Source: Lishizhenia tianjinensis (lineage in GTDB: Bacteria > Bacteroidota > Bacteroidia > Flavobacteriales_D > Crocinitomicaceae). Taken from it: a stretch of 64,000 nucleotides of DNA. Where the stretch lies: positions 1,126,085 through 1,190,084 of the forward strand of contig NZ_FPAS01000001.1 of the NCBI RefSeq assembly GCF_900116425.1, in the 5' to 3' direction. Positions 2,921 through 54,926 of this stretch are shown in pieces (the first letter of the stretch is position 1; every line of letters begins with the position of its first letter). A program made the translations under genes and the position numbers. The notes beneath the pieces were generated by a model that was not told where the DNA came from, did not search any database, and saw only the letters and a list, made by a program, of their open reading frames with translations.

Positions 2921-4228
2921 ATGAATCAGTATAAAAAAGTTGCGTTCTACACGCTTGGATGTAAATTAAATTTCTCTGAAACTTCTACCATAGCCAGAGA
3001 TTTTGAAAATGCAGGGTTTGCAAAGGTCGACTTTGACGACACCCCTGATATTTATGTAATTAACACCTGTAGTGTTACTGAAAATGCCGATAAAAAATGT
3101 AAGCAATTGGTCAAAAAAGGGTTGAAAATTAACCCCAATGCCTTTGTGATTATTATTGGTTGTTACGCGCAATTGAAACCTGAGCAAATTTCGAGCATTC
3201 CTGGGGTAGATCTAGTGTTAGGTGCCAACGAGAAATTCAACATACTCGAACACCTAGAGGCCATGGATGCCAAAGCCGAAACGGCACAAATGAAATTTGA
3301 AAACATCAAAGAAACCAAAGAATTTGTTCCTTCTTTCTCTTACGGTGATAGAACGCGTTCTTTCTTGAAAGTTCAGGATGGTTGCGACTATTTCTGTACT
3401 TTCTGTACCATTCCTTTGGCACGTGGTAAAAGTAGAAATGCCTCAGTTGCTGAAACGACTTTGGAAGCGCAAAAAATCGCAGATACTAAAATCAAAGAGG
3501 TTGTATTAACAGGGGTAAACATTGGAGATTTCGGACAAAATGGAGAGGAAAACTTCTTCGATTTGGTAAAGTCTTTAGATGAAGTGGAAGGCATAGAACG
3601 CTTCCGTATTTCATCTATAGAACCCAACTTACTTTCGGACGAAATCATAGAATTTACACTTGCTAATTCTAAACGATTTGTACCGCATTTCCACATTCCG
3701 TTGCAATCTGGTTCGGATACCTTGTTGAAGGCTATGCGTCGTAAATATTTGAGTGAATTGTACGTGAATCGCGTCAATAAAATCAAAGAAATTTACCCGG
3801 ATGCGTGTATAGGTGTGGATGTAATTGTAGGGTTCCCTGGCGAAACGGATGAGGAGTTTATGGTGACTTACAATTTATTGAAAGACCTCGACATTTCTTA
3901 CCTCCACGTATTTACTTACTCAGAAAGAGCCAACACTGGAGCCCTTAAAATGAAGGATGTGGTGCCTATGAATGTGCGTAAAGACAGGTCTAAAATGTTG
4001 CATATTCTTTCGGATAAAAAGAAACGTAAATTTTACGAGGAGAACCTAAACAAAGACTTTACAGTACTTTGGGAAGGAGAAAACGACAACGGTTTTATGT
4101 ACGGTTTTACAGAAAACTACGTAAAAGTAACCCAACCCTATAACGAAGCCGATATCAATGAAATGCGTAAAGTGAATTTAAAACGTATCAATGCGCAAGG
4201 AATTGTTGAAGTAGAAACGTTGGCGTAA
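2921..4228 (+). CDS. mtaB: tRNA threonylcarbamoyladenosine methylthiotransferase MtaB
   Basis: A radical SAM methylthiotransferase expected to add a methylthio group to t6A37 of tRNAs reading ANN codons. At 435 residues it has the normal length. The N-terminal MTTase domain has the three cluster-binding cysteines (Cys14 in TLGCKLN, Cys50, Cys81). The radical SAM motif CDYFCTFC gives Cys145, Cys149 and Cys152. A C-terminal TRAM-like domain follows. The TLGCKLNxxE opening is typical of MtaB rather than MiaB. An alternative TTG start at 2909 lies inside the promoter -7 box, so the ATG at 2921 is the real start. It is transcribed alone and followed by a strong terminator. Confidence 0.9.
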   Translation: MNQYKKVAFYTLGCKLNFSETSTIARDFENAGFAKVDFDDTPDIYVINTCSVTENADKKCKQLVKKGLKINPNAFVIIIGCYAQLKPEQISSIPGVDLVLGANEKFNILEHLEAMDAKAETAQMKFENIKETKEFVPSFSYGDRTRSFLKVQDGCDYFCTFCTIPLARGKSRNASVAETTLEAQKIADTKIKEVVLTGVNIGDFGQNGEENFFDLVKSLDEVEGIERFRISSIEPNLLSDEIIEFTLANSKRFVPHFHIPLQSGSDTLLKAMRRKYLSELYVNRVNKIKEIYPDACIGVDVIVGFPGETDEEFMVTYNLLKDLDISYLHVFTYSERANTGALKMKDVVPMNVRKDRSKMLHILSDKKKRKFYEENLNKDFTVLWEGENDNGFMYGFTENYVKVTQPYNEADINEMRKVNLKRINAQGIVEVETLA

Positions 4229-4246
4229 AACCCTAAGAACGATATA

Positions 4247-4287
4247 CAAAAAAAGTAGCCCGATATTTTCGAAGGCTACTTTTTTTA
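4247..4287 (+). terminator. Rho-independent terminator after mtaB
   Basis: AAAAAAGTAGCC pairs with GGCTACTTTTTT around a 13-base loop and continues into a T-run. It lies 18 bases past the mtaB stop. Confidence 0.85.
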
Positions 4288-4330
4288 TGTCTTCTATTTT
4301 TTGGCCATTCCTTTTTATTCAAAATAAAAA

Positions 4331-4460
4331 GTCGGGCTAAACGCTATAGTCCTCTCCCAAAAAGCAATTCAAAATAAAGTAGGATAAAAAGCTTCTTATA
4401 GTCGCTTTCCCCTACTCTTTTTCATTCCCTTTTGTGCTGCGGGCTGCCGCTTATATCCCT
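4331..4460 (-). repeat. GGATAG element, copy 2
   Basis: Read on the minus strand it begins GGGATATAAGCGGCAGCCC and ends GGACTATAGCGTTTAGCCCG, the same end motifs as copy 4. The middle is an imperfect double stem capped by CGAC-TATAA-GAAG (4392-4404). Its left end contains the stop codon of the minus-strand gene 4451-6022, so a transcript of that gene would carry the element immediately after the coding region. Confidence 0.7.
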
Positions 4461-44559: not shown

Positions 44560-44567
44560 GGGATATA

Positions 44568-44608
44568 GATTTGAAATTGGAAATTGGAGATTTGAGATTG
44601 GAAATTTT
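44568..44608 (+). repeat. Short direct repeats left of the DUF1801 cassette
   Basis: GATTTGAAATTGG, AAATTGGAGATTTGAG and ATTGGAAATTTT follow one another. The first 13-mer recurs exactly at 45159-45171 on the other side of the cassette, in the same orientation. Confidence 0.6.
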
Positions 44609-44633
44609 GGTGATTATACGCTTGTTTGCCCAA
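44609..44633 (+). repeat. Left terminal inverted repeat of the DUF1801 cassette
   Basis: Core TGATTATACGCTTGTTTGCC. Matches the reverse complement of 45116-45140 at 24 of 25 positions. Confidence 0.88.
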
Positions 44634-44664
44634 AGCCTATTCGCCACCCTTTTCTGGGCACTAG

Positions 44665-44695
44665 TTGTAACAAATCAATAGAGGTGTTACCTTCG
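44665..44695 (+). promoter_or_regulatory. Promoter of the DUF1801 cassette gene
   Basis: TTG (44665-44667), a 20-base spacer, and TACCTTCG (44688-44695, one mismatch to TAnnTTTG). It lies inside the inverted repeats, so the cassette brings its own promoter. Confidence 0.55.
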
Positions 44696-44709
44696 CAAGA
44701 AACAAAAGC

Positions 44710-45093
44710 ATGAGTATAGAAGAATACATTAGCAGCCTTAATGTTCAGGACCAAAAGATTTGTCAGAAGCTAACTAATTTGATTAACGAACATTTACCCG
44801 CTACGGAGCAAAAAATATGGCATGCACATCCTGTTTGGTTTATTGATGGAAACCCTATAGTTGGTTTCAGTAAGCTTAAAATGGGAATAAGACTATTATT
44901 TTGGAGTGGTCAAAGTTTTGAAAACACACCGCTGATCGCTCAAGGAAAATTTAAAGCTGCAGAACTTACCTTTACCCATGTACAACAAATTGACGAGTCT
45001 CGTTTAATCCATTGTTTACAACAAGCAAAGGATATACAATGGGACTATAAAAACATTGTAAAACGCAAAGGGGAATTGGTGCGCTTGAAGTAA
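44710..45093 (+). CDS. DUF1801 (YdhG-like) protein, cassette passenger
   Basis: A 127-residue single-domain DUF1801 protein. The family pattern is seen in VQDQKICQKLTNLINEHLP, KIWHAHPVWFIDGNPIVGFSKLKMGIRLLFWSGQSF and the basic C-terminus DYKNIVKRKGELVRLK. Family members are small cytoplasmic proteins, some described as iron-chaperone-like; no function can be claimed here. It is the only gene between the cassette repeats. The neighbouring YdeI-like gene belongs to a family that often accompanies it. Confidence 0.8.
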   Translation: MSIEEYISSLNVQDQKICQKLTNLINEHLPATEQKIWHAHPVWFIDGNPIVGFSKLKMGIRLLFWSGQSFENTPLIAQGKFKAAELTFTHVQQIDESRLIHCLQQAKDIQWDYKNIVKRKGELVRLK

Positions 45094-45115
45094 AATTTCA
45101 TCCCCAAAAATTACA

Positions 45116-45140
45116 TTGGGCAAACAAGCGTATAATTACC
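45116..45140 (-). repeat. Right terminal inverted repeat of the DUF1801 cassette
   Basis: Starts 22 bases past the DUF1801 stop. Reverse complement of 44609-44633 with one mismatch. Beyond it lies AAATTTGAAATTG and GATTTGAAATTGG (45144-45171), mirroring the left flank. Confidence 0.88.
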
Positions 45141-45261
45141 ATAAAATTTGAAATTGCCGATTTGAAATTGGTCCTTCGACAATAAATCAGGAACCTTAAT
45201 TGAAGATTGAAAATTTAAACCGCTACATCTCCTATAAAAACATCCCCATTTGTACAACCCA

Positions 45262-54005: not shown

Positions 54006-54029
54006 AGTTGCTTATCCGCTTGTTTGCCC
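54006..54029 (+). repeat. Terminal inverted repeat of element 2, left
   Basis: Contains TTATCCGCTTGTTTGCCC. It overlaps the 3' end of the transposase gene: the last six codons and the stop are encoded within the repeat. Confidence 0.85.
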
Positions 54030-54848
54030 GTTGAGCAAGCTCATCTTTGTTAAAAAGATCTCAATTTTTGATTTTATTTCCTTCCTATAATTGTACTTAA
54101 AATTGTATTCATCCATTGCCTTCTGGATATGCAACAAACTAATATGATGGTAGGTTCCTTTTACTATTCTTGTAAAATTTCCAACAACATTTTTACACCA
54201 GTTGTATTTCATAACCTTGGCTCTTATCCACCTTTTTTCGGCTTCAGCATTAAACATAGGTCTACCGTAATTACTGAACAAAATCTTCAACATTTTGTAG
54301 TCTTTCTTTTTAGAGTGGACAATAGAATCAGCTAAATTCCAGCTATAGCAATCAATTTCGAGCTTTATCCTATCAAATTTTTCACCTTCAGATTTACCAT
54401 AATAAACCTCGCACATGCTCAAAGGATTTGATTTTGAATGAAGATCAAACTCCATCAAATCATTGTATTCAAAAAATTCTTTGCCTATGATATCCCCCAT
54501 TTCTATCCGTATCTTTTGAACCATATAATAAACGGTTTCATAGCGCTTCAAACTAGACTGTCTGTGTATTTCACAAATCGATGGTGACTTTTTAAAATCA
54601 CAAGTCAAATAGAGTATTTCCATCCAATTTTTAAAAGACACATGACTATCCCTCATAAACGTCACGCTTTTTAGAGATATTTTCTTTCGACAATTACAAC
54701 ACCTCCAGCCTTTGTTTTTATAACTCCATATCAGCTCATCACTTGAGCATTTAGAACAACAAAGTCCTTTATTTTCAACACTTTTCTTTAGGTAGTTGAC
54801 GCATGACTTTTCATTGGAAAATGTCCTATAGAATTCTGATAATTTCAT
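54012..54848 (-). CDS. IS1595-like transposase 2, non-canonical catalytic region
   Basis: A 278-residue protein with the same plan as the product of 2005-2814: zinc ribbon (CCSKC at 30-34, CCNC at 50-53), SLKSVTFMRDSHVSFKNWMEILYL, LKRYETVYYMVQKIRIEMG, and the C-terminal GTYHHISLLHIQKAMDEYNFKYNYR typical of the end of ISXO2-type domains. The expected VE(V/I)DETY motif is again missing; EFDLH near residue 130 and LEIDCYSW near 165 are the only acidic candidates. The frame is intact and its C-terminus is encoded by the inverted repeat itself. The two transposases are clearly diverged copies of one family. Confidence 0.7.
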   Translation of the reverse strand: MKLSEFYRTFSNEKSCVNYLKKSVENKGLCCSKCSSDELIWSYKNKGWRCCNCRKKISLKSVTFMRDSHVSFKNWMEILYLTCDFKKSPSICEIHRQSSLKRYETVYYMVQKIRIEMGDIIGKEFFEYNDLMEFDLHSKSNPLSMCEVYYGKSEGEKFDRIKLEIDCYSWNLADSIVHSKKKDYKMLKILFSNYGRPMFNAEAEKRWIRAKVMKYNWCKNVVGNFTRIVKGTYHHISLLHIQKAMDEYNFKYNYRKEIKSKIEIFLTKMSLLNGQTSG

Positions 54849-54902
54849 CGTAGGTTGATTTGATTTCTAATAAGTTACGAAATACCAATAATTAATACAA
54901 AT

Positions 54903-54926
54903 GGGCAAACAAGCGTATAATCAGCT
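54903..54926 (-). repeat. Terminal inverted repeat of element 2, right
   Basis: Read on the minus strand it contains TGATTATACGCTTGTTTGCC, which is identical to the core of the DUF1801 cassette repeats. Confidence 0.88.

Follow-up and report, generated by a model that had tools for sequence, protein, structure and literature searches.

The locus considered here raises the question of whether a bacterial gene that lies between two facing inverted repeats belongs to a unit that moves, or once moved, in one piece. The gene encodes a DUF1801 protein and lies in a stretch of 64,000 nucleotides from Lishizhenia tianjinensis, the whole of which is called the window below. The same window holds an element with a transposase-like gene whose ends resemble the repeats. 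The original prediction, made from the window's letters, was that the gene sits in a transposase-less cassette and that this cassette is mobilised in trans by that element, here called element 2.

The DUF1801 unit and the tract that it interrupts

The unit and its immediate surroundings comprise the following features:

44567-44610, + strand: left part of an interrupted heptad tract, (ATTKGRA)n (tandem-repeat family D6, motif matches)
44611-44633, + strand: left inverted repeat core, TGATTATACGCTTGTTTGCCCAA, 22/23 against the right core, with four matches genome-wide
44710-45093, + strand: DUF1801 passenger gene, 127 aa (PF08818, E 1.5e-8)
45116-45138, - strand: right inverted repeat core, TAATTATACGCTTGTTTGCCCAA on the - strand, 22/23 against the left core
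45146-45173, + strand: right part of the same heptad tract (tandem-repeat family D6, motif matches)

The inverted repeats that had been predicted around a single gene are borne out: the full arms (44605-44633 and 45116-45144) are 29 nt long and 93% complementary, and their 23-nt cores agree at 22 of 23 positions. An inverted pair of this quality within 600 bp is expected by our estimate about 2e-4 times per 64 kb, a figure that excludes the match to element 2. The unit measures 528 bp between the outer core edges and contains one gene, with 76 bp from the left core to the ATG and 22 bp from the stop codon to the right core; a candidate promoter of the Bacteroidota type, TTG-N20-TACCTTCG, was read by eye upstream of the gene. 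With a passenger gene between terminal inverted repeats and no transposase gene, the unit is very probably, as far as its anatomy can be read from the letters, of the mobile-insertion-cassette type. A reading as integron attC-like was also weighed by eye and then dropped. A search of the unit regions against Rfam gave 0 matches, and subterminal hairpins in the units are weak (mean z -0.54).

Over its first 22 nt (TGATTATACGCTTGTTTGCCCA) the left core is identical to one end of element 2, at 54901-54923, and the distance of 9.4 kb between cassette and element was also given correctly in the original prediction. When the 3.56-Mb genome was searched with a 20-mer core at up to three mismatches, four matches were obtained, one at each arm of the cassette and one at each end of element 2, and the cassette ends thus match this one resident element only. 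It had further been suggested that the same repeats be sought elsewhere. In the source genome no further gene was found between them among the 150 of 964 profile candidates scored, a search that may have overlooked further gene-bearing units, and an exact scan for the repeat pattern in 84,980 species genomes (source genome left out) returned a single match, in Mycoplasma, which was judged to be due to chance.

Two facing repeats are insufficient as proof of a mobile cassette, and it is the interrupted tract that carries the argument here. The heptad repeat has the form ATTTGAA-ATTGGAA on both flanks of the cassette. Within the window the motif TTTGAAATTG has just three occurrences, at 44570, 45147 and 45161, all on one strand and lying on both sides of the unit, and the longer heptad form matches about 20 loci in the genome (reversed control, 0). 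When the unit is excised in silico, the joined flanks form a single period-14 array with a score of 70; taken separately at the same period, the left flank scores 54 and the right flank gives no array for the heptad tract. Because the unit splits a tract of a kind present at some 20 loci, its position very probably reflects an insertion, and the tract would very probably have existed before the unit entered it. Of the original prediction, a transposase-less, repeat-bounded unit with a passenger gene is supported; it was very probably inserted in a repeat tract and shares its ends with element 2 only. The nearest relatives compared belong to other genera, where the genes next to the cassette have diverged too far for alleles to be compared, and the best homologue of the gene neighbouring the cassette is 47% identical.

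Homologues of the DUF1801 gene occur in 27 of the 199 genomes searched. None of those in relatives has flanking inverted repeats of this kind, and no neighbours are shared between the homologue loci and the window; therefore the gene normally resides outside cassettes and was enclosed in the source lineage.

Element 2 and its protein family

Two elements of the family in question lie in the window:

1919-2836, + strand: element 1, the second family member (inverted repeats 1919-1941 and 2814-2836; ORF 2005-2814, P0002)
54009-54923, - strand: element 2, the sole element with matching inverted repeats (54009-54031 and 54901-54923, 20/23 identical)
54012-54848, - strand: P0001, a degenerate IS1595-like protein of 278 aa in element 2, second catalytic D absent (Pfam and NCBIfam fragments, residue alignment)

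Element 2 has an unbroken ORF surrounded by terminal inverted repeats, as expected of an IS1595 element. P0001 scores 22.2 bits against the Pfam IS1595 domain (cut-off 27), with a match in the tail only, and 50.4 against the NCBIfam IS1595 model (cut-off 75), short of a full domain. The first catalytic D and the N..R..G.HH block are retained in P0001, and the second of the two acidic residues is missing. The term "IS1595-like" is thus apt for the ancestry of element 2 but not for its catalytic domain, which is degenerate. An AlphaFold model of P0001 from a two-row alignment reached a pLDDT of 38, too low for use. It is doubtful that element 2 could supply transposase activity to the cassette; the loss of the standard residues leaves catalysis via other residues conceivable.

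The P0001 family has 17 copies in the source genome, the other 16 sharing 30-41% identity with P0001; they lie at 1919-2836 and 54009-54923 of the window and at 15 further loci. All 17 frames are unbroken, and every element is single-copy. Fifteen of the copies sit in elements about 0.9-1.0 kb long whose inverted repeats can be recognised; these repeats are alike inside one element and differ among elements, so that each element has private repeats on a shared plan, TTGATTAnnCGCAnTTnTGCCnAA. In the canonical relatives nearest to the family (L121, L122, L124, L125, L127) the catalytic blocks read DE.Y, SDK and ISNxKR. The second D is present in 0 of the 17 paralogues and the first in about four, element 2 included; the third block alone is retained. 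Differences between the closest paralogues at codon positions 1, 2 and 3 (0.29, 0.19 and 0.56) argue that the paralogues are under purifying selection.

Degenerate relatives are also present in the genomes G006, G043, G264, G010, G007 and G019. In the tree the 17 proteins of the source genome form a single clade (support 100/99), and the five degenerate proteins of G006 form a separate one (99/99) that groups with canonical enzymes. Given these separate clades, the loss of catalytic residues and the growth of paralogues appear to have arisen more than once.

The elements also share an unusual setting. Between 20 and 80 bp outside them, read inward from both sides, the G/C skew is 0.565 (64 flanks), with G in excess of C in 60 of the 64; control stretches downstream of other genes have a skew of 0.044, with a maximum of 0.167 in 2000 draws. 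A two-tetrad G4-like motif is found in 44% of element flanks and 6% of controls. The same G-rich, C-poor profile surrounds elements of other genomes (L146, L148, L149, L151-L155) and is absent around the few canonical elements with recognisable ends. By our own count it is also missing from the flank on the right of the DUF1801 unit, an absence in keeping with a later insertion.

The source genome contains at least 16 further facing pairs of inverted repeats, forming units of 140-257 bp that enclose neither a transposase gene nor any other. They were found with a profile of element ends (150 of 964 candidates scored) and a subsequent scan of the stretches that it had picked out, and are located at 2564-2772, 4195-4392 and 15169-15376 of contig stretch L100 and in L101-L108. 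Eight of the 16 have one repeat type in common, with unrelated interiors. There is a tendency for units to be close to their elements. Units assigned by repeat similarity (the cassette, C7b-d, C2b and C8d) lie 2.7-9.9 kb from their cognate elements, and three of the eight common-type units are at most 9 kb away from element L067; two C3 units were placed by nearness alone and carry no weight on the proximity of units to elements.

Past insertion, regulation or present movement

The reading that we prefer, to which we assign a probability of about 0.6, is that the unit is a non-autonomous, repeat-bounded element of the IS1595-derived family in which a DUF1801 gene replaces the transposase, and that it records a past insertion that is now fixed. 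The DUF1801 gene would first have become enclosed by two ends of the element 2 type, and the enclosed gene would then have entered the heptad site as a whole, not far from its cognate element and with the help of some protein that recognised the ends. The cassette would now be fixed in the genome, because the standard catalytic residues are missing from the sole protein with matching inverted repeats, that of element 2. The family itself lives on in intact proteins under selection, which probably still bind the inverted repeats of their own elements.

If such binding is taken as the whole function, the protein of element 2 might be a DNA-binding regulator and the repeats its putative binding sites around DUF1801, whatever their origin. 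The relatives in G043 and G264, two species of one genus other than the source genus, speak for this in part. Three degenerate elements occupy matching sites in the two species, within 8-12 kb of aligned DNA of 85-88% identity, with dN/dS values of 0.10, 0.17 and 0.10, so selection retains these elements in place. Over six arms, a small number, their inverted repeats have a mean identity of 92% and the neighbouring 25 bp one of 77%. A fifth G264 element has suffered an internal deletion in G043, with most of the gene and the left end gone, and there the right end has decayed, as an operator bereft of its protein might; a fourth G264 element is missing at the G043 site, where the junction is not clean. 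In the source genome, however, the DUF1801 unit is the sole gene carrier among the 17 transposase-less units found, so gene regulation is no general role of the repeats, and we regard the regulatory explanation as unlikely.

The same relatives bear on the proposal that the cassette is currently mobile and moved in trans by the transposase of element 2. It draws on the near-perfect match between the ends, the intact ORF, the residues that P0001 retains (the first D and the N..R..G.HH block) and the insertion in a repeat tract. Against it, none of the 17 paralogues has the second D, the cassette, like each element, is present once in the genome, no target-site duplication was seen at the cassette, and the elements of the sister species G043 and G264 have remained in place. 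On this one point the original prediction is not borne out: to judge by these sequence features mobilisation by element 2 is probably not occurring at present, and the proposal as a whole is quite improbable.

Scattered half-sites do occur in other genomes. In G006 the end sequence of an element is repeated six times in a direct array, at intervals of 65-115 bp (L191, 6487-6978), and a degenerate transposase-like gene is located some 5 kb away; G010 has several direct and inverted half-sites near such a gene (L192, 7158-13625). Facing half-sites in G010 stand on either side of a 293-aa gene, putatively fabD as read from its sequence, so flanking by itself is no proof of a cassette. That the DUF1801 gene is likewise an ordinary gene caught between two scattered half-sites and never moved as a unit, for which the G010 half-sites around ordinary genes and the G006 array offer a precedent, is nonetheless highly improbable, since the arms lie near the gene and agree at 22 of 23 positions, the heptad tract is split around the unit, and the sites followed up in the source genome occur as facing pairs.

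Relation to known systems

Mobile insertion cassettes (MICs) are known with qnrD (PMC3913671) and qnrS2 (PMC5444012). As in these, a passenger gene lies between transposon-type inverted repeats without a transposase gene, and the ends are common to a fuller element. The DUF1801 unit differs in that the standard catalytic residues are missing from its cognate protein, in its single copy without a target-site duplication, and in its passenger: a literature search found no DUF1801 gene in a cassette context. The cassette adds modestly to what is known: the passenger between its ends of the IS type is a DUF1801 gene.

The degenerate family matters more than the cassette itself. With the IS1595 family it shares a zinc ribbon, a helix-turn-helix region, a C-terminal N..R..G.HH..LQ..LDE.. 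block and a length of about 0.9-1.0 kb with terminal inverted repeats; unlike that family it lacks the second catalytic D in 17 of 17 proteins, scores under the NCBIfam cut-off, and consists of single copies with private repeats and G-rich flanks. No description of an IS1595-derived family that combines residue loss, private repeats and G-rich flanks was found in the literature. The family suggests that bacterial DDE transposases may repeatedly lose standard catalysis and yet stay selected together with their own ends, and, if so, it would offer a testable model of transposases turning into host DNA-binding systems.

The gene-less units resemble MITEs in being short and in having terminal inverted repeats common to a fuller element, but units with the same repeat have unrelated interiors; a literature search for IS1595 together with a MITE in Flavobacteria found no case. 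REP/REPIN sequences with their RAYT proteins (PMC3116915, PMC8266576) provide another comparison, in that a single-copy, transposase-derived protein under selection is accompanied by its end sequence in scattered copies that are not autonomous. The likeness is one of behaviour only, since the ancestry here is IS1595 and not that of a HuH tyrosine enzyme, and there are few units and many paralogues per genome. Tentatively, and at somewhat less than even odds, several lineages of the order may independently have made IS1595 transposases into catalytically degenerate families with private inverted repeats, a G-rich setting and sometimes linked short units. These families would be a selection-kept, DDE-derived counterpart of REP/RAYT, and the DUF1801 cassette would be such a system that has enclosed a gene.
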